Positions 44,290 to 64,000 of a DNA stretch of 64,000 nucleotides are shown here, piece after piece. The translations under genes were made by a program, and so were the position numbers. The notes beneath the pieces are model-generated. The model searched no databases. It was not told the DNA's origin and saw nothing but the letters and a program-made list of their open reading frames with translations. Within the stretch, counting starts at the first letter, position 1; every line of letters begins with the position of its first letter. The stretch lies in assembly GCA_031761405.1 (NCBI GenBank), contig JASEVX010000088.1:620001-684000 (forward strand), read 5' to 3'. The DNA is from Serripes groenlandicus. Its lineage: Eukaryota > Mollusca > Bivalvia > Cardiida > Cardiidae.

Positions 44290-45674
44290 CCCTACTTACT
44301 TAATTTGAGCCTCTAGGAGCTTTCTGGGGGTTGGTTTGTGTCCATTTTCCGCAGCATTTAATTGCTGACAGGTTAAATGAGCTTGCCTGAAAGTTTGGTC
44401 TGCAATATGCTAGTCTACACTACGAGAAAGTAACGAACAAGGAAAATTAATACCGAAACTGGATTCTTTTTTTAAAGAGAAATCTTTTTTTATCGATTAA
44501 CCGCATAACAAAACCATTGTTAGCATACAAATGAAAAACGCGGATAAGTTTTCAAAGTCTTTGGTTGATTTCGTTCAAACGGTTAGCAAAATATAGCAAT
44601 TACCCTTTACCCAGTACGGTGTTGTTTGCTGACATATTGAAAGCTTCCTTTGGTAATGATTGAATGTTTTCAGCCTTTAATTGGGTCTTGTTTTATCATA
44701 CTCAAAAGTCTTTTATGATGTTTTTCACTTTGAATGAGTTAATTCAACAAGTCAATATGTAAATTTTATATAAAAATTAAATCTTTCTAATTTTAATTAC
44801 TTTTTAAAGACATGAGCCACTTGTTTTGCTTGAAAAATTAATATTTAGATGATATTTCTCGCTTAAAATGCTGTTTTGGAATGATTTTGATTCAGAAAGA
44901 AGTTGAACTGTTTCATGGTACTATATAATACTTTTATAGCCCAGATATACAGTACTAAACATCTTTATGTTGTTTATTCTATGCCTAAGAAATTAAAGTG
45001 TGCAGCGTGAAAATTACTTGAATGTGAAAATATAAGAGTGCTTTGCTATAATAACTATGAAAAAAAGGGGTGGCTTCTTTTTACATCAATGACTCATTTG
45101 ATAGTTAGGAAGTCTCTAGGATAAATTAAAGCATTTGAAACACAGAAATATGGGGATAAAACTCTTTTTCTTAGCAAAATTTCGGCTAAAACACTTAATT
45201 CTGGTTGATTTTTCTGAAATGACACGAGAAAAGGGGTATTTGGATAGGTGCAATTTGTGTGGATTTAGTGCGTTTCTATTGGGCGTCGGGGAACCAAATC
45301 ATTCGCAGTCATTGTAATGATACAGAGGATTTGAAGGGTGCAGATTTTGATCAAAATGAACCAATCCGTAGATCCAGATTTGTCATGGATATCCGAAAGC
45401 CCCCATTTCCACTTAAAAAGAGTTCAATGAGACATCATCATGCTACAATTAAATGAAAAACATGCCATTAGTATGGTTTTCAAAACAAATGAAGGGAGAT
45501 TACTCCAAAAGTATTTGTGTAGACTTCTACAAAACAATCTGAAGCTTTTTTTGGATTTATAGCACTCTACATGATTGACTGAAGCTGTTCAAAGATTCAT
45601 AAATTTTTCATCTGTTTCCATCATGTCTGATCAAGGCGGTGTTTAAACTAGAGAAAAACCCAGGCTTTAATAAA
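44290..45674 (+). repeat. Duplicated block, copy 3 (largest)
   Basis: Contains the text of 1936-2780 in order, plus block H of 41838-42381, plus the flank of 27518-27771. From 44038 to 44290 nothing is recognised. Its open frames carry the same short residues as the other copies but with frame breaks, so I do not call genes. Confidence 0.8.
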
Positions 45675-47518: not shown

Positions 47519-47640
47519 AGACCAGGCTGAATAAATTTTGGGCCTAAAAAGACCAGGCCGAATTAATTTTGGCCAGAAAAAGACCAGGCCGAATACATTT
47601 TGGGCCGAATACACCCGGATTCGGCTTGCCGGGCTGACAA
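47519..47640 (+). repeat. Short minisatellite, about 33-bp units
   Basis: Three copies of 'aaagaccaggccgaat' plus 'attttgggcc', then a related palindromic piece 'cccggattcggcttgccggg'. Confidence 0.8.
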
Positions 47641-47692
47641 TTTTGTCCAGTGGATTTCAGACGATGCATAAGACTGAAGTGGTCTCCCATTG

Positions 47693-47827
47693 GAATGAAT
47701 GTATATTGTTTTATGGCGCATCGACAGCTAAGGTCATTTAGCGCGCAATTAAATTTAATTATTCATGATTCCTGGGTAAACAAACCAGTACTTGGCTAGA
47801 AAATGTGCCTTGCCCAAGGGCACTCCA
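47693..47827 (-). mobile_element. SINE S1, antisense, head missing
   Basis: Matches the tail and body of the 17157 copy ('gtatattgttttatggcgca', 'tgccttgcccaagggcactc'). It stops at 47827, exactly where the next element's inverted repeat begins. Confidence 0.85.
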
Positions 47828-50045: not shown

Positions 50046-52524
50046 CAAGAGGCCCATGAGGGCCTATGCTCTACTGGTACTGATCTGGTTTGTTTCAAAA
50101 GGAACCAATATGTCATCAATAATCAAATACCATCTAAGTTTGGTGAAGATCAGATAGTAAATGGAACCTCTATTGTGTTCACAAGCTGTATTATAGCAAT
50201 TTTGACAATTTCAAGGGCCATAATCCAGCCATGCATGGGTAGATCTGGCCGTTTTTTAGAAATGAACCAAACTCTCATGGATATCTAACTACTGTATAAG
50301 TTTGATTGAGATACAATAAAAAATAAGGACTGTATCATGTTAACAAGCCCTATTATAGCAATTTTGACAATTTCAAGGGCCATAATTCATATTCATATAT
50401 ACCAAACTTATACAGTAGTTAGATATCCATGAGAGCTTGATTCCTTTCGAAAACAAGCTCTCATGGATATCTAACTACTGTATAAGTTTGGTTGAGATAC
50501 AATAAACAAGAGGGCCATGATGGCCCTGGAATCGCTCACCTGATTTTATTTTTTTTTCACTTTAGCCATATAAGCCCGCCCCCTGGCAGCCATAGTTTCC
50601 GACCAATCAACTTGGCTTGAATGAATCTGATAGAGGGCCACCCTAGGAACATTTTACAATTTTTTTTGAAAATCGGCCAGACACTTTTGGAGGAGAAGAT
50701 TTTTTAAGTTTTCACTATAGCCATATAATGCAAAATAGCCCTGCCCACTGGCGGCCATGTTTTTTGACCAATCAACATGGCTTGAAGGAATCTGAAAGTG
50801 GGTCATCCAAAGAACATTTCTACAAAATTATTTGAAAATCGGCCGGACACTTTTGGAGAAGAAGATTTTTTAAGTTTTCACTATAGCCATATAAGGCAAA
50901 ATAGCCCCGCACCCCCTGGCGGCCATGTTTTTCGACCAATCAACTTGGATTGAAGGAATCTGATAGAGGGTCATCCAAGGAACATTTCTACAAAATTATT
51001 TGAAAATCGGTTTGACACTTTCGGAGGAGAAGATTTTTTAAGTTTTCACTATAGCCATATAAGGCAAAATAGCCCCGTCCCCCTGACAGCCATGTTTTTT
51101 GACCAATCAACATGGCTTGAAGGAATCTAATAGAGGGTCACCCAAGGAGCATTTCTACAAAATTATTTGAAAATCTGCCAACCAGTTTGGGAGAAGAAGA
51201 TTTTTTAAGTTTTCACTATAGCCATATAAGGCGAAATAGCCCCGCCCACTGGCGGCCATATTTTTCGACCAATCAACATGGCTTGAAGGAATCTGATAGT
51301 GGGTCACTTAAGGAACATTTCTACAAAATTATTTGAAAATCGGCCAGACACTTTCGGAGGAGAAGATTTTTTAAGTTTTCACTATAGCCATATAAGGCAA
51401 AATAGCCCCGCCCCCCTGGCGGCCATGTTTTTCGACCAATCAACATGGCTTGAAGGAATCTGATAGAGGGTCACCCAAGGAACATTTCCACAAAATTATT
51501 TGAAAATAGGCCTGACACTTTCGGAGGAGAAGATTTTTTAAGTTTTCACTATAGCCATATAAGGCAAAATAGCCCCGCCGCCCCCCCCCCTGGCGGCCAT
51601 GTTTTTCGACCAATCAACATGGTTTGAAGGAATCTCATAGAGGGTCATCCAAGGAACATTTCTACAAAATTATTTGAAAATCTGCCAACCAGTTTGGGAG
51701 AAGAAGAATTTTGAAGTTTTTTTCATTTCGTTGCCATGGAAACCAGAATTCTGCATGGATCCCAAAAATTTGAAGGAAATCTGGTGAGGTCATTGAGAGG
51801 ATGCTTTCTGTGAAGTTTCATCCCAATTGACCCACTGGTTACTGAGGAGAAGAAGTTGACGCACGACGCACGACGGACGCCGGACAAAAGGCGATCACAA
51901 TAACTCACCTTGAGCAAAGCTCAGGTGAGCTAAAAATAAAGACTATCGTGTTAAAAATCTATTATAGCAATTTTGACCATTTCAAGGGCCATAATCCAGT
52001 CATGCATGGGCAGATCTATCTGGTTTTCCAAAGGAACCGAGCTCTCATGGATATCTAACTACTGTATAAGTTTGGTTGAGATACAATCAAAAGTGAAGAC
52101 TGTATCGTGTTAACAAGCTCTTTTATAGCAATTTTGACCATTTCAAGGGCCATAATCCAGTCATGCATGGGGGGATCTGGCTGGTTTTCAAAAGAAACCA
52201 AGCTCTCATAGATATCTAACTAATGTATAAATTTGGTTGAGATACAATCAAAAGTGAAGACTGTATCATGTTAACAAGCTCTTTTATAGCAATTTTGACC
52301 ATTTCAAGGGCCATAATCCAGTCATGCATGGGCGGATCTGGCTGGTTTTCATAAGGAACCAAGCTCTTATGGATATCTAACTACTGTATAAGTTTGGTTG
52401 AGATACAATCAAAAGTGAAGACTGTATCGTGTTAACAAGAAATTGTTTACGGACGGACGCACGCACGCAACACAGACAAATCGCCACGACATAAGCCCTT
52501 CTGGCCTTTGGCCAGTAGAGCTAA
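50046..52524 (+). mobile_element. Family D element, complete, carrying a nested B element
   Basis: CAAGAGGCCCATGAGGGCC and GCTCTACTGG open it; CTGGCCTTTGGCCAGTAGAG and CTAA close it. GCTCTACTGG and CCAGTAGAGC are the subterminal inverted pair. Six units of about 165 bp ('actgtataagtttggttgag', 'gccataatccagtcatgc'). A part at 50385-50505 contains an inverted D unit. Both flanks are family I sequence. Confidence 0.9.
50507..51933 (+). mobile_element. Family B element, complete, nested in family D
   Basis: CAAGAGGGCCATGATGGCCC to GCTCAGGTGAGCTAA, eight units. The host unit at 50310-50340 shows the empty site CAAT-A6-TAAGG; here it is CAAT-AAA, element, AAA-TAAAG when CTAA is the element end. 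Confidence 0.92.
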
Positions 52525-52950: not shown

Positions 52951-53485
52951 GATCGAGTGACTATGATATGGTTTGATATGGTTTTTGTCCATTTTTCTCA
53001 GCATTTTATTGCCGACAGGTTAAATGAGCTTGTCTGAAAGTTTGTTCTGCAATATGCAGGAAACGAACATTTCCATAGGCGACCATTATAGCATTATGGG
53101 TTATGGTTCGTTACTAGCAAATGAATTAACACATATACCTGTATCAAACTAAAGTTCATCCTTAGAACTACCAAAAAAGCAAAACAAACTCACATGTTCA
53201 CCGTTTTTGACAGAGCTAGGAGGTCAAATCAAAGGTGACCCTTATCCTCCAATGAATTTTACTTTCAATTTCAGAAAATACATGTTCTAAAAATGGCTCT
53301 TAATGTGTCAACATAGCTAAAAGCAAACACTTTTTTTATTATAAATCAATCACAGGTTATTACACTTAATAAACAACACTTTAAACTTCCAACAAAATCA
53401 TTATTGTCCAATGGGAGACAACTTCAATCCCATATATTCATCTGAAATTCCCTGGACAAAAATTGTCTACCCAGCAAGTCAATCC

Positions 53486-53508
53486 GATTTACTTCCCTTT
53501 GACCTAAA
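53486..53508 (+). repeat. 23-bp inverted motif of the 3.2-kb unit
   Basis: GATTTACTTCCCTTTGACC plus TAAA here is an exact reverse complement of 56259-56281, just before the next unit's start. The pair frames the transposase and endonuclease (about 2.8 kb). It recurs in the other units (one base changed at 56704 and 63082) and alone near 646-668. Either a terminal repeat or an internal binding site. Confidence 0.6.
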
Positions 53509-53979
53509 TCAAATTCTGTTTTTCGATAAACAGCATAATCTTTACATTTTAGTATATGGCTGTCTATGGCGGACATACAAACAAAATTTCAATCAATTTG
53601 GTTGAACGGTTTTGGAAAAGTAGCAATTTCCCTTCACCCTCTGTGCACTGAGCTATAAAATTAATTCTTCAAGTTTACCGTCAAAGGGAGATAACTCAGT
53701 AGACCTTATGCACACAAAGCTAATTCAAGAGGTTTTCAGTTCTGATTGCCCATGATATTCCATAAACAGACTCAGTCAAACCCAAAACACATGAAGGAAA
53801 TACAATGAGTCAATCCATAGGTTATCTTTAAGAGAGAAAACATCCTGGGAAAAGGAGATATTGCTCACCTTTTTCCGCAATAATTTCAAATTATACCTGC
53901 TGCAGAAGTGTTTTCAGGAGAATAGGTCATGTAAATTAACAAAATGAGGAATCAGGCTTGTTTTTATACTCAATTTTAG

Positions 53980-55770
53980 CCAGGAGGATGACTGCTACAA
54001 AATATTTCACGTCAAAAAGCTCTTAGAGATGTTTAATATGGTCAATATGGAGCACAGGGCCAGTTTTCCAAACTGTCGAGGGAATCTCACATTCGACAAG
54101 AAAAGTGAAGACCGAAGAGGTCTTGTTTGGAGGGAGAGAATGACATGTTGCACATGTTTATATGTGTCTAAAATGCACAAGGTTTACACAGAGTTATCTT
54201 CCCCAACAAAGCGATGAGGTTGCAAGATGGCTACAGCAAATCTGGGCTTAAATATAGCGTTGACTCAAACCCCGATTGGGGGATCAAGTCTCGTTCGACT
54301 TTTGGCTGGTGGAAATATTGGGGGCCCATCACGTCGGGGCGTAACAAACAGTAGCAAAGCAGCTAGTGAAGTCATTGTTGCTGAGAATAAGGCTGACATG
54401 TCCAAACGACTGCATCAGTTGGGAAAAATTAACTGGTGGCAAGGTCGGCCAGAAAATGAGATTCCTGTGCAGGTAGACGGCGTATATAACAACAACCTTT
54501 ATTCTGGAGTTGGAAGAACCCCATTTCAGCCCGCAACCTAGTGCATTGTAACACTGGCAGAAAATATCACCCCACGTAAGCAATTGGTGGCAGTTGAGGC
54601 AGTCAGTAAATTATGCTCCAAGCATGGTTTTCACACAAAGGAGGATGTAGGGCAGTGTGATATTCAGGACGGTAAATGTTCAGCAACTGTCAGTATGGAG
54701 ACTAATATTGGGGACGAGCAACAATGGGCCGAAACATGCTTCCTTAACCTTAAAAATGATGGAATGGAGGTTAAATTTGTAACCACAGATGGGGATGGAA
54801 AATCGTTTCAGGCGGCACGCCAGCTTCACGCGTCTGGATATACAAAAACTATTCCTGTGCAACAACTTGACAAAAGGCATCTCGGTGCTAATCAGCAAAA
54901 GTACATCAAAGCATCAAACAAGGTTACCACAATCATGCCAGGGAAAACCAAGGCATATCGGCAGTATACACAAAACAGGTTTGTATTAGATATGTGCAAA
55001 CGCTGTCAGGCTGAATTTCATTATATCATCAAGAAGAAATCGAAAAATATCCTAGACAACATGTGCGTCATGATATCCACTATAAAGCAATGCTTTGCAG
55101 GGAACCATAGTCGGTGCAGGACAAATTTAGCCGTGTGCAAAGGGGAAACGAACAATAACTGGCTTTTCAACAGTATTTTTCTATCCAGCACATTCAAATA
55201 GACATAAAGAAGGAGGAGAACGAGAAAATCTTAATGGAGACGATTGAATATCGCCTGGGAGATGAAACGTTCCAACTAACCAGGCTACATACCAACACAC
55301 AGAAAGTCAAGGGGAAAAATAGAGCCATTAAAAGTTCCTTACCAAAAGACAAGACGTTTTCCAGGAACTTCCAGTCAAGTGCACACAGTGCCCTACACTT
55401 TGTCAATAATGGACCCAGAAATTCCTTGTGCAAACTTTGTTCTGCTGCCGGATGTGCAATTCCTTCAGGAAGTAGTGCTGACTGTCAGCTCGAGTCGCTC
55501 CAAACTTACTCTGAAGAGAAAAAAACATGCGAAAAGTCCATTGAATTCAAATTGAAGCGTAAGTTACGAAGATAGCGGCTATTCAAACTGTACGAAAAGC
55601 ATCGTGAGCAGAAAAAGTATGTGAAAAATCAACTGACGGCGCATCTACGAACAACACTGACTAAGACGCAAAATCTGCCACACATTATACAAGTCTGGGC
55701 CAACACTGACCATGATGGATATGCTCGGAAACAAATGAAGTTGAGGCAAAGAAGCAGTAGTGTACCTACA
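53980..55770 (+). pseudogene. Mutator-like transposase, copy 1 (second exon, decayed)
   Basis: DDE-type DNA transposase of the PF20700 'Mutator-like' group, which cuts and rejoins its element's ends. A clean acceptor (ATACTCAATTTTAG) precedes the frame. In order: YKIFHVKKLLEMFN, FPNCRGNL, RRGLVWRERMTCCTC, ANLGLNIALTQTPIGG, IPVQVDGVYNN (candidate Asp, codon 54476), RTPFQPAT, AENITPRKQ, VKFVTTDGDGKSF (second Asp, 54788), DKRHLGANQQKY, MPGKTKAYRQYT, KRCQAEFHY (candidate Glu, 55013), CFAGNHSRCRTN, and IEYRLGDETFQL with PKDKTFSRNFQS. Lesions: TGA at 54215 (from CGA), TAG at 54539, one lost A near 55197, TAG at 55573. The N-terminal exon is absent from the unit, so this copy cannot work. The tail runs toward the endonuclease on the other strand. 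Confidence 0.9.
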
Positions 55771-56150
55771 TCAGAAGATGCATGCAGGCTTGTGCCCAAG
55801 GCAGGACCCTCTGACCATACACTGACGACGTCCAGTGTTAACATAATGGGGTTCAACGGTAAGATGACCATCTTTTATGCATCTCTTATTGTGACAGAGG
55901 TGACTGACATCCATGCAATTTCCATGTGTGTCAACCTCTACCAGCTCGGACCTATGTCTAATCATCAAGATCAACAACTGAACACGGGTCTGTGTACATC
56001 TGCCATCAGGCCAAGTAACCCTCTTGACAGGATAACCATCCCTGTCTGTGTAACCCATCCACCCAGGCATTCTGACCCTCCCCCCAGGATCCTAGAGTGT
56101 TTTTCTATGGCATTCTCCAGCTTGACCCAACACTTGTATGGATATTCCAT
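55771..56150 (-). pseudogene. His-Me finger (I-PpoI-like) endonuclease, copy 1
   Basis: Small nuclease of the zf-His_Me_endon type, tail to tail with the transposase. It starts MEYPYKCWVKLENAI and reaches a WxGYTDRDGY strand, TWPDG, then DVSHLCHNKRC, DGHLTVEPHYVN, GRRQC, GSCLGHKPAC and stop. From the His of SHLC, the ligand spacing matches that remembered for I-PpoI: Cys +2, Cys +7, His +12, Asn +21, Cys +27, His +36 and Cys +40; the remaining Cys is one residue off. The first zinc Cys would be that in SECL. About 126 residues. The only break I see is one missing base between ECL and GW, present also in copy 2 and repaired in copy 3's text. Expected role: metal-dependent double-strand cleavage; target unknown. 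The long plus-strand frame opposite is its antisense shadow, at least in the right half. Confidence 0.88.
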
Positions 56151-56287
56151 TTCATAAACGTTTGATGATGAAGGTCTCAACCTTTCGTCCATATACAAGG
56201 AGTACAAGTGATGAAAATGAGCGAAAAGGGCAAAAAAGTACTGAAATCTAAGCCCTGCTTTAGGTCAAAGGGAAGTAAATCATTTTC

Positions 56288-57211
56288 CATAGGCGACCAT
56301 TATAGCACTACGGGTTATGGTTCATTACTAGCAAATGAAGTAACACATATACCTGTATCAAACTAATGTTCATTCTTAGAACTACCAAAAAAGCAAAACA
56401 AACTCACATGTTCACCGTTTTTTGACAGAGCTAGGAGGTCATATCAAAGGTGACCCTTATCCCGCACTCAATTTTACTTTAAATTTCAGAAAATACAGCA
56501 TGTTCTAAAAATGGCTCTTAATGTGTCAACATAGCTAAAAGCAAACACTATTTTTATTATAAATCAGTCACAGGTTATTACACTTAATAAACAACACTTT
56601 AAACTTCCAACAAAATCATTATTGTCCAATGGGAGACAACTTCAATCCCATATATTCATCTGAAATTCCCTGGACAAAAATTGTCTACCCAGCAAGTCAA
56701 TCCGATTTATTTCCCTTTGACCTAAATCAAATTCTGTTTTTCGATAAACAGCATAATCTTTACATTTTAGTATATATGGCTGTCTATGGCGGACATACAA
56801 ACAAAGTTTCAATCAATTTGGTTGAACGGTTATGGAAAAGTAGCAATTTACCTTCACCCTCTGTGCACTGAGCTATAAAATTAATTCTTCAAGTTTACCG
56901 TCAAAGGGAGATAACACAGTAGACCTTATGCACACAAAGCTAATTCAAGAGGTTTTCAGTTGATCTCCCATGATATTCCATAAACAGACTCAGTCAAACC
57001 CAAAACACATGAAGTAAATACAATGAGTCAATCCATAGGTTAACTTTAAGAGAGAAAACATCCTGTGCAAAGGAGATTTTGCTCAATATAATCATTTCAC
57101 CTTTTTCCGCAATAATTTCAAATTATGCCTGCTGCAGAAGTGTTTTCAGGAGAATAGGTCATGTAAATTAACAAAATGAGAAATCAGGCTTGTTTTTATA
57201 CTCAATTTTAG
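56288..57211 (+). other. Spacer of the 3.2-kb unit, copy 2
   Basis: Non-coding. It contains 'acaaactcacatgttcaccg', 'attattgtccaatgggagac' and the 23-bp motif (one change), ending at the splice acceptor in front of the transposase exon. The same layout holds at 53074-53979 and 59525-60428. A first transposase exon is not present. Confidence 0.75.
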
Positions 57212-59007
57212 CCAGGAGGATGACTGTTACAAAATATTTCACGTCGCAAAGCTCTTAGAGATGTTTAATATGGTCAATATGGAGCACAGGGCCAGTTTTC
57301 CAAACTGTCGAGGGAATCTCACATTCGACAAGAAAAGTGAAGACCGAAGAGATCTCGTTTGGAGGGAGAGAATGACATGTTGCACATGTTTATATGTGTC
57401 TAAAATGCACAAGGTTTACACAGAGTTATCTTCCCCAACAAAGCGATGAGGTCGCAAGATGGCTACAGCAAATCTGGGCTTAAATATAGCGTTGACTCAA
57501 ACCCCGATTGGGGGATCTAGTCTTGTTCGACTTTTGGCTGGTGGAAATATTGGGGGCCCATCACGTCGGGGCGTAACAAACAGTAGCAAAGCAGCTAGTG
57601 AAGTCATTGTTGCTGAGAATAAGGCTGACATGTCCAAACGGCTGCATCAGTTGGGAAAAATTAACCGGTGGCAAGGTCGGCCAGAATATGAGATTCCTGT
57701 GCAGGTAGACGGCGTATTTAACAACAACCTTTATTCTGGAGTTGGAAGAACCCCATTTCAGCCCGCAACCTAGTGCATTGTAACACTGGCAGAAAATATC
57801 ACCCCACGTCAGCTATTGGTGGCAGTTGAGGCAGTCAGTAAATTATGCTCCAAGCATGGTTTTCACACAAAGGAGGATGTAGGGCAGTGTGATATTCAGG
57901 ACGGTAAATGTTCAGCAACTGTCAGTATGGAGACTAATATTGTGGACGAGTAACAATGGGCCGAAACATGCTTCCTTAACCTTAAAAATGATGGAATGGA
58001 GGTTAAATTTGTAACCACAGATGGGGATGGAAAATCGTTTCAGGCGGCACGCCAGCTTCACGCGTCTGGATATACAAAAACTATTCCTGTGCAACAACTT
58101 GACAAAAGGCATCTCGGTGCTAATCAGCAAAAGTACATCAAAGCATCAAACAAGGTTACCACAATCATGCCAGGGAAAACCAAGGCATATCGGCAGTATA
58201 CATACACAAAACAGGTTTGCATTAGATATGAGCAAACGCTGTCAGGCTGAATTTCATTATATATCATCAAGAAGAAATCGAAAAATATCCTAGACAACAC
58301 GCGCGTCATGATATCCACTTTAAAGCAATGCTTTGCAGGGAACCATAGTCGTGCAGGACAAATTTAGCCGTCTGCAAAGGGGAAACGAACAATAACTGGC
58401 TTTTCAACAGTAATTTTCTATCCAGCACATTCAAAATAGACATAAAGAAGGAGGAGAACGAGAAAACCTTAATGGAGACGATTGAATATCGCCTGGGAGA
58501 TGAAACGTTCCAACTAACCAGACTAAATACCAACACACAGAAAGTCGAAGGGACAAATAGAGCCATTAAAAGTTCCTTACCAAAAGACAAGACGTTTTCC
58601 AGGAACTTCCAGTCAAGTGCACACAGTGCCCTACACTCTGTCAATAATGGACCCAGAAATCCTTGCGCAAACTTTGTTCTGCTGTCGGATGTGCAATTCC
58701 TTCAGAAAGCAGTGTTGACTGTCAGCTCGAGTCGCTCCAAACTTACTCTGAAGAGAAAAAAACATGCGAAAAGTTTATTGAATTCAAATTGAAGCGTAAG
58801 TTACGAAGATAGCGGCTATTCAACCTGTACGAAAAGCATCGTGAGCAGAAAAAGTATGTGAAAAATCAACTGACGGCGCATCTACGAACAACACTGACTA
58901 AGACGCAAAATCTGCCACACATTATACAAGTCTGGGCCAACACTGACCATGATGGATATGCTCGGAAACAAATGAAGTTGAGGCAAAGAAGAAGTAGTGT
59001 ACCTACA
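57212..59007 (+). pseudogene. Mutator-like transposase, copy 2 (decayed)
   Basis: Same order of motifs as copy 1: FPNCRGNL, ANLGLNIALTQTPIGG, VQVDGVFNN, TTDGDGKSF, KRHLGANQQ, MPGKTKAYR, RCQAEFHY, YRLGDETFQL. It shares with copy 1 the TGA after SPTKR (57447), the TAG after FQPAT (57771) and the TAG in the LRR*RLF segment. Its own lesions are a TAA at about 57951 (in DE*QW), an extra TACA near 58200, a lost base near 58350 and others. Acceptor conserved at 57211. The sharing of two nonsense codons puts copies 1 and 2 together as a younger pair. No activity expected. Confidence 0.9.
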
Positions 59008-59387
59008 TCAGAAGATGCATGCAGGCTTGTGCCCAAGGCAGGACCCTCTGACCATACACTGACGACGTCCAGTGTTAACATAATAGGGTTCAACGGTAAG
59101 ATGACCATCTTTTATGCATCTCTTATTGTGACAGAGGTGACTGACATCCATGCAATTTCCATGTGTGTCAACCTCTACCAGCTCGGACCTATGTCTTATC
59201 ATCAAGATCAACAACTGAACACGGGTCTGTGTACATCTGCCATCAGGCCAAGTAACCCTCTTGACAGGATAACCATCCCTGTCTGTGTAACCCATCCACC
59301 CAGGCATTCTGACCCTCCCCCCAGGATCCTAGAGTGTTTTTCTATGGCATTCTCCAGCTTGACCCAAACCTTGTATGGATATTCCAT
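59008..59387 (-). pseudogene. His-Me finger endonuclease, copy 2
   Basis: Nearly the same as copy 1, with the same missing base in the SECL/GW region and the same length. Residues DVSHLCHNKRC, DGHLTVEP, YVNTGRRQC and GSCLGHKPAC are kept, so all nuclease and zinc positions survive; a His before YVN has become Tyr, outside the ligand set. N-terminal start MEYPYKVWVKLENAI. The 3' end is again tail to tail with the transposase. One single-base event separates it from an open frame; whether a start further down is used cannot be told. Confidence 0.87.
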
Positions 59388-60428
59388 TTCATAAACGTTT
59401 GATGATGAAGGTATCAACCTTTCGTCCGTATACAAGGAGTACAAGTGATGAAAATGAGTGAAAAGGGGGAAAAAGTACTGAAAACTAAGCCCTGCTTTAG
59501 GTCAAAGGGAAGTAAATCATTTTCCATAGGCGACCATTATAGCATTACGGGTTATGGTTCATTACTAGCAAATGAAGTAACACATATACCTGTATCAAAC
59601 TAATGTTCATTCTTAGAACTACCAAAAAAGCAAAACAAACTCACATGTTCACCGTTTTTTGACAGACCTAGGAGGTCATATCAAAGGTGACCCTTATCCC
59701 GCACTCAATTTTACTTTAAATATCAGAAAATACAGCATGTTCTGAAAATGGCTCTTAATGTGTCAACATAGATAAAAGCAAACACTATTTTTATTATGAA
59801 TCAGTCACAGGTTATTACACTTAATAAACAACACTTTCAACTTCCAACAAAATCATTATTGTCCAATGGGAGACAACTTCAATCCCATATATTCATCTGA
59901 AATTCCCTGGACAAAAATTGTCTACCCAGCAAGTCAATCCGATTTACTTCCCTTTGACCTAAATCAAATTCTGTTTTTCGATAAACAGCATAATCTTTAC
60001 ATTTTAGTATATGGCTGTCTATGGCGGACATACAAACAAAATTTCAATCAATTTGGTTGAACGGTTATGGAAAAGTAGCAATTTCCCTTCACCCTCTATG
60101 CACTGAGCTATAAAATTAATTCTTCAAGACAGTCAAAGGGAGATAACTCAGTAGACCTTATGCACACAAAGCTAATTCAAGAGGTTTTCAGTTCTGATCT
60201 CCCATGATATTCCATAAACAGACTCAGTCAAACCCAAAACACATGAAGTAAATACAATGAGTCAATCCATAGGTTAACTTTAAGAGAGAAAACATCTTGG
60301 GAAAAGGAGATATTGCTCAATATAATCATTTCACCTTTTTCGGCAATAATTTCAAAGTGTTTTCAGGAGAATAGGTCATGTTAATTAACAAAATGAGGAA
60401 TCAGGCTTGTTTTTATACTCAATTTTAG

Positions 60429-62211
60429 CCAGGAGGATGACTGCTACAAAATATTTCACGTCGCAAAGCTCTTAGAGATGTTTAATATGATCAATATGGA
60501 GCACAGGGCCAGTTTTCCAAACTGTCGAGGGAATCTCACATTCGACAAGAAAAGTGAAGACCGAAGAGGTCTCGTTTGGAGGGAGAGAATGACATGTTGC
60601 ACATGTTTATATGTGTCTAAAATGCACAAGGTTTACACAGAGTTATCTTCCCCAACAAAGCGATGAGGTCGCAAGATGGCTACAGCAAATCTGGGCTTAA
60701 ATATAGCGTTGACTCAAACCCCGATTGGGGGATCAAGTCTTGTTCGACTTTTGGCTGGTGGAAATATTGGGGGCCCATCACGTCGGGGTGTAACAAACAG
60801 TAGCAAAGCAGCTAGTGAAGTAATTGTTGCTGAGAATAAGGCTGCCATGTCCAAACGACCGCAGCAATTGCAATAAATTAACCGGTGGCAAGGTCGACCA
60901 GATTCCTGTGCAGGTAGACGGCGTATATCACAACAACCCTTATTCTGGAGTTGGAAGAACCCCATTTCAGCCCGCAACCCAGTGCATTGTAACAGTGGCG
61001 GAAAATATCACCCCACGTAAGCAGTTGGTGGCAGTCGAGGCAGTCAGTTAATTATACTCCAAGCATGGTTTTCACACAAAGGAGGATGTAGGGCAGTGTG
61101 ATATTCAGGACGGTAAATGTTCAGCAACTGTCAGTATGGAGACTAATATTGGGGACGAGCAACAATGGGCCGAAACATACTTCCGCAACCTTAAAAATGA
61201 TGGCATGGAGGTGAAATTTGTAACCACAGATGGGGATGGAAAATCATTTCAGACGGCACTCCAGCTCCACGCGTCTGGATATACAAAAACTATTCCTGTG
61301 CACCAACTTGACACAAGGCATCTCAGTACTAATCAGTGAAAGTACATCAAAGCATCAAACAGGGTTATCACAATCATGCCAGGGAAAACCAAGGCATATC
61401 GGCAGTACACACAAAACAGGTTTGCATTAGATATGAGCTAACGCTGTCAGGCTGAACTTCATTATATCATCAAGAAGAAATCGAAAAATATCCTAGACGA
61501 CACGCGCGTCATGATATCCACTATAAAGCAATGCTTTGCAGGGAACCATAGTCTGTGCAGGATAAATTCAGCTGTGTGCAAAGGGAAAACGAACAATAAC
61601 TGGCTTTTCAACAGTATTTTTCTATCCAGCACATTCAAAATAGACATAAAGATGGAGGAGAACGTGAAAATCTTAATGGAGATGATTGAATATCGCCTGG
61701 GAGATGAAACGGTCCAACTAACCAGGCTAAATACCAACACACAGAAAGACGAGGGGACAAATAGAGTCATTAAACGTTCCTTACCCAAAGACAAGACGTT
61801 TTCCAGGAACTTCCAGTCACATGCACACAGTGCCCACACTCTGTCAATAATGGACCCGGAAATTCCTTGCGCGAACTTTATTCTGCTGCCGGATGTGCAA
61901 TTCCTTCAGGAAGTAGTGCTGACTGTCAGCTCGAGTCGCTCCAAACTTACTCTGAAGAGAAATAAACATGCGAAAAGTCCATTTAATTCAAATTGAAGCG
62001 TAAGCTACGAAGACAGCGGCTATTCAAACTGTACGAAAAGCATCGTGAGCAGAAAAAGTATGTGAAAAATCAACTGACGGGGCATCTACGAAAATCACCG
62101 ACTAAGACGCAAAATCTGCCACACATTATACAAGTCGGGCCCAACACTGACCATGATGAATATGCTCGGAAACAAATGAAGTTGAGGCGAAGAAGAAGTA
62201 GTGTACCTACA
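60429..62211 (+). pseudogene. Mutator-like transposase, copy 3 (decayed)
   Basis: Same family and layout. It keeps the ancestral Gln codon where copies 1 and 2 have TAG after FQPAT, and again in LRRQRLF, so it branched off before those changes. It shares only the TGA after SPTKR (60664). Its own lesions: frame damage with loss of several bases near 60870-60905, TAA at about 61048 (SKLCS region), TGA at about 61337 (NQ*KY), TAA at about 61439, and frame changes near 61850. Motifs still readable: IPVQVDGVYHN, AENITPRKQ, TTDGDGKSF, MPGKTKAYRQYT, YRLGDETVQL, LPKDKTFSRNFQS. The region around the first Asp is thus preserved in a broken frame. Confidence 0.88.
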
Positions 62212-62592
62212 TCAGAAGATGCATGCAGGCTTGTGCCGAAGGCAGGACCCTCTGGCCACACACTGACGACGTCCAGTGTTAACATAATGGGGTTCAACGG
62301 TAAGATGAACTTCTTTTATGCATCTCTTATTGTGACAGGTGACTGACATCCATGCAATTTCCATGTGTGTCAACCTCTACCAGCTCGGACCTATGTCTAA
62401 TCATCAAGATCAACCGCTGATCACGGGTCTGTGTACATCTGCCATCAGGCCAAGTAACCCTCTTGATATGATAACCATCCCTGTCTGTGTAACCTATCCA
62501 CTCCAGGCATTCTGACGCTCCCCCCGGGGTCCTAGCTCGTGTTTTTCTATGGCATTCTCCAGCTTTAGCCAAAACTTGTATGGATATCCCAT
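62212..62592 (-). pseudogene. His-Me finger endonuclease, copy 3
   Basis: In this copy the SECLEWIGYTDRDGY segment is in one frame, which shows that copies 1 and 2 lost a base there. Its own breaks lie elsewhere: frame changes near 62540 and 62500 in the N-terminal part and a 2-base loss near 62337 that ends the frame just after DVSHL. Beyond it the shifted frame still holds HNKRCIK, HLTVEPHYVN, GRRQC and GSCL. Different lesions in different copies mean that an intact ancestor is a safe inference. Confidence 0.85.
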
Positions 62593-62729
62593 TTCATAAA
62601 CGTTTGATGATGAATGTCTCAAGATATCGTATATATACAAGGAGTACAAGTGATGAAAATGAGCGAAAAGAGGGAAAAAGTACTGAAAACTAAGCCCTGC
62701 TTTAGGTCAAAGGGAAGTAAATCATTTTC

Positions 62730-63250
62730 CATAGGCGACCATTATAGCATTATGGGTTATGGTTCGTTACTAGCAAATGAATTAACACATAATTATATAC
62801 CTGTATCAAACTAAAGTTCATTCTTAGAACTCAACTACCAAAAAAGCAAAACAAACTCACATGTTCACCATTTTTTGACAGAGCTAGGAGGTCGAATCAA
62901 AGGTGACCTTTATCCCGCACTGAAATTTACTTTCAATTTCAGAAAATACAGCATGTTCTAAAAATGGCTCTTAATGTGTCAACTTCCAACAAAATCATTA
63001 TTGTCCAATGGGAGACAACTTCAATCCCATATATTCATCTGAAATTCCCTGGACAAAATGTTCTGCCCAGCAAGCCAATCCGATTTAATTCCCTTTGACC
63101 TAAATCAAATTCTGTTTTTCGATAAACGGCATAATTTTTACATTTTAGTATATGGCTGTCTATGGCGGACTTACAAACAAAATTTCAATCAATTTGGTTG
63201 AACGGTTATGGAAAAGTAGCAATTTCCCTTTACCCTTTGTGCACTGTGCT
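62730..63250 (+). repeat. Partial fourth copy of the 3.2-kb unit (spacer only)
   Basis: It follows the spacer from CATAGGCGACCATTATAGCA to 'gtgcactg', with a deletion of about 75 bp near 62978 relative to other copies, then changes to unrelated DNA. From 63250 to 63729 I see only AT-rich non-coding sequence. Confidence 0.9.
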
Positions 63251-63729
63251 ATTCTGTACACTTATAATAGGATGGCCTCCCTTGACCAAAAATTGAATTT
63301 TTTAATTCTTAAAAAGGGAAAACTTAAATTTGCTGATGTTAATTAACATTTAATGACATAGCCCACATTTGCTTTAAAATGTGATTCTTTTTTACATTAT
63401 TTTATATGTATCATACACTGAAAAGTCAGTTTTGGCATAAATCTGTTCCAAATGTTAGCAGCAATGTCTCATAGGTATAAACCTTTTCCTACAATGTTCT
63501 CTCATCATTTTATTATTGTTTTTTTGACAGCTGAGCAGGTCCAGTCCTTGATAAGGGACTCAAATGTGCTAGTCTAATAGGTTTAAGGTGACATATTGAC
63601 CTCCATGGAAGGGGCTCTTTGTGTCTCAGACATGACTCAGTTTGTAATAAGCAAGCCTTTAGGCAACACTAAAACAGGATACATACTCTTATTTGTTCAT
63701 ATAAATTGAGTTTTTGGAGGTTTTTCATC

Positions 63730-64000
63730 ATGAAAGGTGACAAGAAACGGAGAAAATCCATGTTCAAACATGGAAATAAATGTAGGTCGGGACGTCAAAG
63801 TGTTTCTAAAGTGACTCCTAGCAGTGAATATGTAAGACCGACTGCGGAAGAGGCTGAATTAATGGATGTAGACCAAGTTGTTCATGACGCAATGGCATCT
63901 ACGTCAACTTCAACAGACCAGAAGCCATGTTGTTGCGCCCCATACTCAAACAGCCAGAGTACAAGACTGTACTGGAAGCAGAAAGACAAGTTATTTTGGC
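63730..64000 (+). CDS. Candidate N-terminal exon of another Mutator-like transposase, cut by the window edge
   Basis: An ATG at 63730 opens a frame that stays open to the window end (90 codons). It begins MKGDKKRRKSMFKHGNKCRS, the Lys/Arg-rich start usual in PF20700-type transposases of invertebrates, and then has YVRPTAEEAELMD, again typical. After about 63925 the frame turns Cys-rich and unlikely, whereas the next frame reads LLRPILKQPEYKTVLEAE, which suits the family better; so there is a frameshift or the codon call is wrong near there. This N-terminal part is absent from the three array units. It may be exon 1 of a fuller element just beyond the window. Codon use is more even than in the repeats around it. 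Confidence 0.5.
   Translation, partial: MKGDKKRRKSMFKHGNKCRSGRQSVSKVTPSSEYVRPTAEEAELMDVDQVVHDAMASTSTSTDQKPCCCAPYSNSQSTRLYWKQKDKLFW

Follow-up and report, generated by a model that had tools for sequence, protein, structure and literature searches.

Which mobile element carries, in each of its tandem units, a transposase gene and a homing-type endonuclease gene that face each other from opposite strands, and did the endonuclease have a part in the growth of the array? The question is raised by a locus in Serripes groenlandicus (Bivalvia; Cardiidae), at the right-hand end of a stretch of 64,000 nucleotides from contig JASEVX010000088.1 (positions 620,001 to 684,000 of the forward strand; this whole stretch is called the window below). 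A preliminary description had reported a Mutator-like element with a second enzyme and had known of no earlier account of such an element. The pairing of transposase and nuclease is real, but this kind of element was already published in 2022 as KolobokP (Kojima and Bao, Mob DNA 13:24; PMC9587614). Judged by the published description of the anatomy, the locus is almost certainly a decayed KolobokP multimer, (LTDR-INT)3-LTDR with at least the start of a fourth INT, where LTDR stands for a long terminal direct repeat, INT for the stretch between LTDRs and TIR for the short inverted repeat at the LTDR ends.

A tandem array of LTDRs and INTs

According to PMC9587614, KolobokP comprises 228 families in seven animal phyla, especially in bivalves. 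The transposase is encoded on the direct strand, and most families have an I-PpoI-like nuclease downstream on the complementary strand. The LTDRs are near 450 or 660 bp long, with TIRs of their own (11–18 bp) and RR..YY ends; target-site duplications (TSDs) of 3–5 bp lie at the outer ends, and the elements form both solo LTDRs and multimers of the type (LTDR-INT)n-LTDR. Kojima and Bao are also cited for the multimerisation of bivalve Kolobok elements in PMC12750733. In the window, units of ≈3.2 kb lie head to tail, in a series of four LTDRs and three INTs after which a fourth INT begins:

53070–53505, plus strand: LTDR1, 436 bp, without the first ≈22 bp including the left TIR; found by BLAST to LTDR2, 3.4% different
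53506–56261, plus strand: INT1, 2,756 bp, between LTDR1 and LTDR2, with both genes of unit 1
56262–56723, plus strand: LTDR2, 462 bp, AG...CT ends, 20-bp TIR (19/20)
56724–59498, plus strand: INT2, 2,775 bp, with a broken transposase
59499–59960, plus strand: LTDR3, 462 bp, AG...CT ends, perfect 20-bp TIR AGGTCAAAGGGAAGTAAATC / GATTTACTTCCCTTTGACCT
59961–62703, plus strand: INT3, 2,743 bp, with a broken transposase that has its own lesions
62704–63101, plus strand: LTDR4, 398 bp, shorter than LTDR2 and LTDR3, TIR at both ends (19/20 at the right)
63102–64000, plus strand: probable start of INT4, the first 151 bp like the other INTs (95%), then different, reaching the window edge

The array shares several features with the published elements. 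A DDD/E transposase is found on the direct strand of the INT, and a His-Me finger nuclease downstream on the complementary strand, the two being convergent both in the window and in the related proteins P0001 and P0003 described below. The INTs are flanked by LTDRs of about 450 bp (LTDR1 and LTDR4 are damaged), the LTDRs have their own TIRs and 5'-RR...YY-3' ends, and the whole forms a multimer. Exact 20-bp inverted pairs have a chance expectation of 1.4e-5 in 3.2 kb.

Three units had been counted before, and these are 94.9–97.1% identical, but the array holds more than three, since LTDR4 and 151 bp from the start of another INT follow (62704–63252). An origin of the array by separate insertions is not favoured, as the units share their junctions at this level of identity. 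No good match to the units was found in 63253–63730. At 63731 comparison with the relative proteins P0001–P0136 revealed a peptide resembling the N-terminus of the Mercenaria transposase P0055 (39% over 66 residues, E 3.8e-9), and P0055 and the unit transposase are 56% identical over 49% of the query. Because the first exon of a KolobokP-type transposase lies here (63731–64000), the fourth unit probably continues past the end of the window. The same exon was not found in units 1–3, which may be shortened derivatives, the fourth being a longer unit cut by the window edge.

The two genes of the unit

Both genes of unit 1 and the nuclease of units 2 and 3 lie as follows:

53948–55800, plus strand: transposase of unit 1 (PF20700), a broken gene without exon 1, its two ends placed approximately; from PF20700, the reading frames and 83 relatives
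55771–56150, minus strand: nuclease (His-Me finger) of unit 1; a 1-bp deletion breaks the gene, and the zinc loop falls within the open frame 55771–56091; from PF05551 and tblastn of P0001 and P0002
59008–59328, minus strand: nuclease zinc-loop open reading frame (ORF) of unit 2, with the same 1-bp deletion as unit 1; from PF05551 and tblastn
62215–62527, minus strand: nuclease of unit 3; a loss of 2 bp at the SHLC motif splits it, and 2 bp are inserted further upstream; from tblastn

Profile searches bore out the assignment of unit 1 to PF05551 on the minus strand and PF20700 on the plus strand, with all matches above the Pfam cut-offs. Analysis with hmmscan showed that the minus ORF 55771–56091 matches PF05551 (zf-His_Me_endon) with E 1.5e-11 and 45 bits, the cut-off being 27, and that the minus ORF of copy 2 does so with E 1.8e-11, also above the cut-off. 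The plus frame over the nuclease bases is likewise open (55576–56157), as would suit a minus ORF that is open by chance opposite the transposase gene. Yet this plus ORF has no Pfam family at E ≤ 1, while the minus ORF has both its PF05551 match and 53 relatives at E ≤ 0.001, and we rejected the chance origin, to which we give practically no credence. In 5.8 billion proteins, the nuclease used alone had two relatives, P0001 (131 aa, 73% identity) and P0002 (133 aa, 62%); the 53 were obtained with the window nuclease aligned with these two as the query.

The zinc-ligand columns of the nuclease are named by the cysteine numbering of I-PpoI. Conservation was counted in 34 of the 53 nucleases and 22 of the 83 transposases, chosen by hand and mostly from the top of the lists. 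The catalytic H and N of the nuclease are present in 34/34 aligned proteins and the eight zinc-ligand columns in 32–34/34. The SHLC pattern was said to be kept in copies 1 and 2; this is true of the zinc-loop pattern, which is complete in both, but neither copy is a whole gene. In each of them the same single base pair is missing at the tryptophan that follows the first conserved cysteine, which puts the N-terminal ≈30 residues in another frame, so that the seven zinc ligands from SHLC onward are present and the first cysteine is out of frame. Copy 3 is readable across a frameshift, as the preliminary description had it: tblastn recovered it in two frames, with the zinc loop divided between them. 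The nuclease has the I-PpoI fold, with 18–20% identity to I-PpoI in the structure alignment. The relatives P0001 and P0002 are shorter (131–133 aa) than I-PpoI (162–163 aa), and whereas I-PpoI, a His-Cys box homing endonuclease, comes from a group I intron of Physarum, the window nuclease is encoded by a transposon. As first proposed, the window nuclease is an I-PpoI-like His-Me enzyme; it is of the His-Cys box type and broken at this locus.

For the transposase, two plus-strand pieces of unit 1 match PF20700 with E 4.6e-11 and 1.5e-9 (hmmscan). The gene of unit 1 is interrupted by TGA 54215, TAG 54539, a 1-bp frameshift near 55195 and TAG 55573. TGA 54215 is common to all three units, and since the ORF of P0003 begins just past the corresponding point it is not counted as a lesion. 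Both catalytic D residues and the DxxH motif are readable in the transposase frames of the window, and the last catalytic Glu is replaced by Lys in copy 1 but kept in copies 2 and 3. The D, D, E and DxxH columns are invariant in 22/22 aligned relatives, as is a C-x4-H-x2-C-x6-C motif between DxxH and the last E. Published KolobokP transposases have a zinc finger in this interval and a CCHC finger after the first D. After the first D, three C are invariant in all 22 aligned relatives and two H are found in 21/22. Neither gene is intact in any of the three units.

The gene pair outside this locus and the identity of the element

With stops read through as X, the transposase has 83 relatives, the best being P0003 (558 aa, 69%). 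An organism name is given for 11 of the 83, ten of them bivalves (Mercenaria, Ruditapes, Pinctada, and Mytilus) and one the metagenome-assembled genome (MAG) of a symbiont, and the bivalve origin of the named relatives is a further likeness to KolobokP. The nuclease P0001 and the transposase P0003 share a longest contig of 6,367 bp. When the C-terminal 42 residues of P0003 are set against the C-terminal 41 residues of P0001 plus its stop, codon against reverse-complemented codon, 42/42 positions are possible, a fit derived from the protein sequences. The register is that seen in the window, and the tails of the 82 other transposases reach 38% at most. As the two ends fit opposite strands of one DNA, an independent relative appears to have both ORFs open and convergent, with an antisense overlap of 42 codons. 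In this overlap, most of the nuclease zinc loop lies opposite the transposase tail. The sections of PMC9587614 used here make no mention of such an overlap.

A second pair, P0103 (PF05551) and P0035 (PF20700), is found in a symbiont MAG from Lucinoma, a lucinid clam. Their locus tags, KZQ70_14050 and KZQ70_14055, are neighbours, both list a contig of 2,256 bp, and they probably represent DNA of the host clam binned with the bacterium. Comparison of the longest contigs of the 53 nuclease and 83 transposase matches gave four shared sizes (2256, 3734, 4139, and 6367); at least four were shared in 0.07% of trials with the nuclease lengths shifted by up to 150. Only the 6367 pair passed the antisense test. 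The 3734 pair (P0006/P0088) has no codon-register overlap and was not counted as a gene pair; nor was the 4139 pair (P0072/P0093), which also lacks the overlap, lies in a crowded length range and has differing sources. No codon-register overlap was found for the 2256 pair either, but it is still counted because its locus tags are neighbours.

The pair is thus found outside this locus, contrary to the refuting condition set beforehand, that no other copy would have the two genes together. The preliminary description was right that the two genes, tail to tail in each ≈3.2-kb unit, belong to one mobile element and were once intact together. Its suggestion of a selfish gene that inserted into the element is disfavoured as far as a recent insertion goes. 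A recent invasion of a Mutator-like element by a selfish homing-endonuclease gene would be in keeping with the Pfam title of PF20700, "Mutator-like transposase", and the transposase domain does pass the cut-off of this family. The association is, however, not recent, since relatives as diverged as P0001/P0003 (at 73% and 69% identity with the window) and P0103/P0035 of the MAG also have the pair, and for this reason we rejected recent insertion. Mutator and Mutator-like elements (MULEs) have long terminal inverted repeats and 8–10-bp TSDs. At the units of the window, which has no complete outer ends, the long repeats found are direct, the inverted ends are 20 bp long and the second gene is a nuclease. 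LTDRs with their own TIRs are published KolobokP anatomy, most KolobokP families have the nuclease, and the describing authors place KolobokP transposases in the Kolobok superfamily (PMC9587614). The label "Mutator-like" follows the Pfam name, and a Mutator-like element with a recently arrived nuclease gene is very improbable.

Several observations count against KolobokP. The TIRs of the window are 20 bp long, compared to the 11–18 bp reported, and as monomers units 1–3 would measure ≈3.7 kb, which is shorter than the autonomous KolobokP families of oyster (4,022–4,748 bp); we explain the difference by the loss of exon 1. Units 1–3 also differ from the published elements in lacking this exon and in being broken. 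Some KolobokP families have no nuclease, according to PMC9587614. The outer ends of the array, where a TSD would lie, are incomplete, as LTDR1 lacks its left end and the right end seems to lie beyond the window. Among the relatives, just 4/53 nuclease matches have a contig size in common with any of the 83 transposases, although the other 49 are uninformative either way, many of those contigs being too short for both genes, and the contig of P0002 (2,291 bp) has no counterpart among the transposase matches.

The longest contigs of 17/83 transposases fall between 4,000 and 4,249 bp, near the published size of autonomous elements; these may be collapsed repeats, or perhaps circles. A search of viral contigs with the nuclease gave a single locus, 32% identical, read as an HNH-type ORF on a phage-like contig (L001). 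The search of viral contigs with the transposase and both scans of genome contigs gave no relative.

Elsewhere in the window, 361–800 holds a diverged 3' part of an LTDR followed by the start of an INT, at 71% and 65% identity, respectively. The TIR GATTTACTTCCCTTTGACCT lies within it at 646–665, and the stretch is what is left of a related KolobokP copy. Two short fragments, at 2110–2227 and 44480–44612, resemble the INT in its 5' part, and a third, on the minus strand at 47616–47710, resembles the LTDR. Tandem arrays with units of ≈166 bp and ≈161 bp occupy 50579–51754, 51958–52439 and many places in 2839–43577, and relatives of the ≈166-bp unit recur across the window in both orientations. 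Scans of the window with Rfam (gathering thresholds) and for tRNA genes gave no matches.

Origin of the array

The three units do not show the same relationships along their length. In the first 400 bp of the unit (LTDR), units 2 and 3 are closest (1.7% different vs 3.5% and 4.8%), while beyond unit position ≈1,200 the closest two are units 1 and 2 (1.5–3.3% vs 4.3–6.7%). Between the LTDR and ≈1,200 all three are alike (1.6–3.0%). The sites grouping units 1 and 2 lie mostly right of position 1,230 (94/106, compared to 40/75 of the other sites), and to its left units 2 and 3 are grouped by 23 sites and each of the other two pairs by 12. The mosaic statistic was reached in 0/5,000 shuffles. This mosaic fits the footprint of one unequal crossover that turned two units into three, with the exchange somewhere from the LTDR end to the 5' part of the transposase gene. 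Gene conversion could blur the pattern, and we regard unequal crossover as very probably the source of the array.

Three lesions are common to units 1 and 2 and absent from unit 3, namely TAG 54539, TAG 55573 and the nuclease deletion. The last duplication thus copied a unit that was dead in both genes. Differences at the three codon positions number 4/5/5 for nuclease copies 1 and 3 and 1/0/1 for copies 1 and 2; for the transposase (973 bases from 54218) they number 18/17/17 and 8/6/4, respectively. These small numbers give no sign that either frame has been under constraint since the units parted.

The DDD/E transposase would move the element by acting on the TIRs that bound each LTDR, and the nuclease might cut DNA, either within an LTDR or at the junction of two abutting ends in a circular form of the element. 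With a neighbouring LTDR as the repair template, units would then be gained or lost. Unequal crossover induced by the nuclease was proposed by Kojima and Bao, who call it speculative and awaiting experiment (PMC9587614). That the nuclease promoted the growth of this array is, in our judgement, only just short of an even chance. The duplication of a unit with a broken nuclease tells against it, and one simple scan for near-palindromes in LTDR3 gave two, neither of them common to all four LTDRs.

Ordinary unequal crossover may instead have made the array, the nuclease being a selfish passenger or serving another step of transposition. This would change the mechanism and not the identity as KolobokP. 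Direct repeats in tandem recombine anyway, and both the lesions shared by units 1 and 2 and the even spread of the differences between units 1 and 3 over the codon positions are in line with it. On the other hand, a nuclease supplied by some other part of the genome could work on a dead unit; at the time of the duplication, unit 3 or the fourth unit, of which the window shows the start, may still have been intact; and the catalytic residues are kept in all 34 aligned relatives, which indicates that the nuclease gene is kept for something. We consider ordinary crossover a serious possibility, if somewhat below an even chance.

The locus bears on whether the nuclease drives tandem growth, as it combines a crossover-like footprint with the duplication of a broken unit. 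It is also conceivable, though unlikely, that such arrays grow by a nuclease acting in trans, with dead units being duplicated when their LTDRs are cut by a nuclease made elsewhere and repaired. The lesions common to units 1 and 2 and the mosaic of the units are what growth in trans predicts, though passive crossover predicts both too. If growth in trans is true, the repeat would become a self-expanding satellite.
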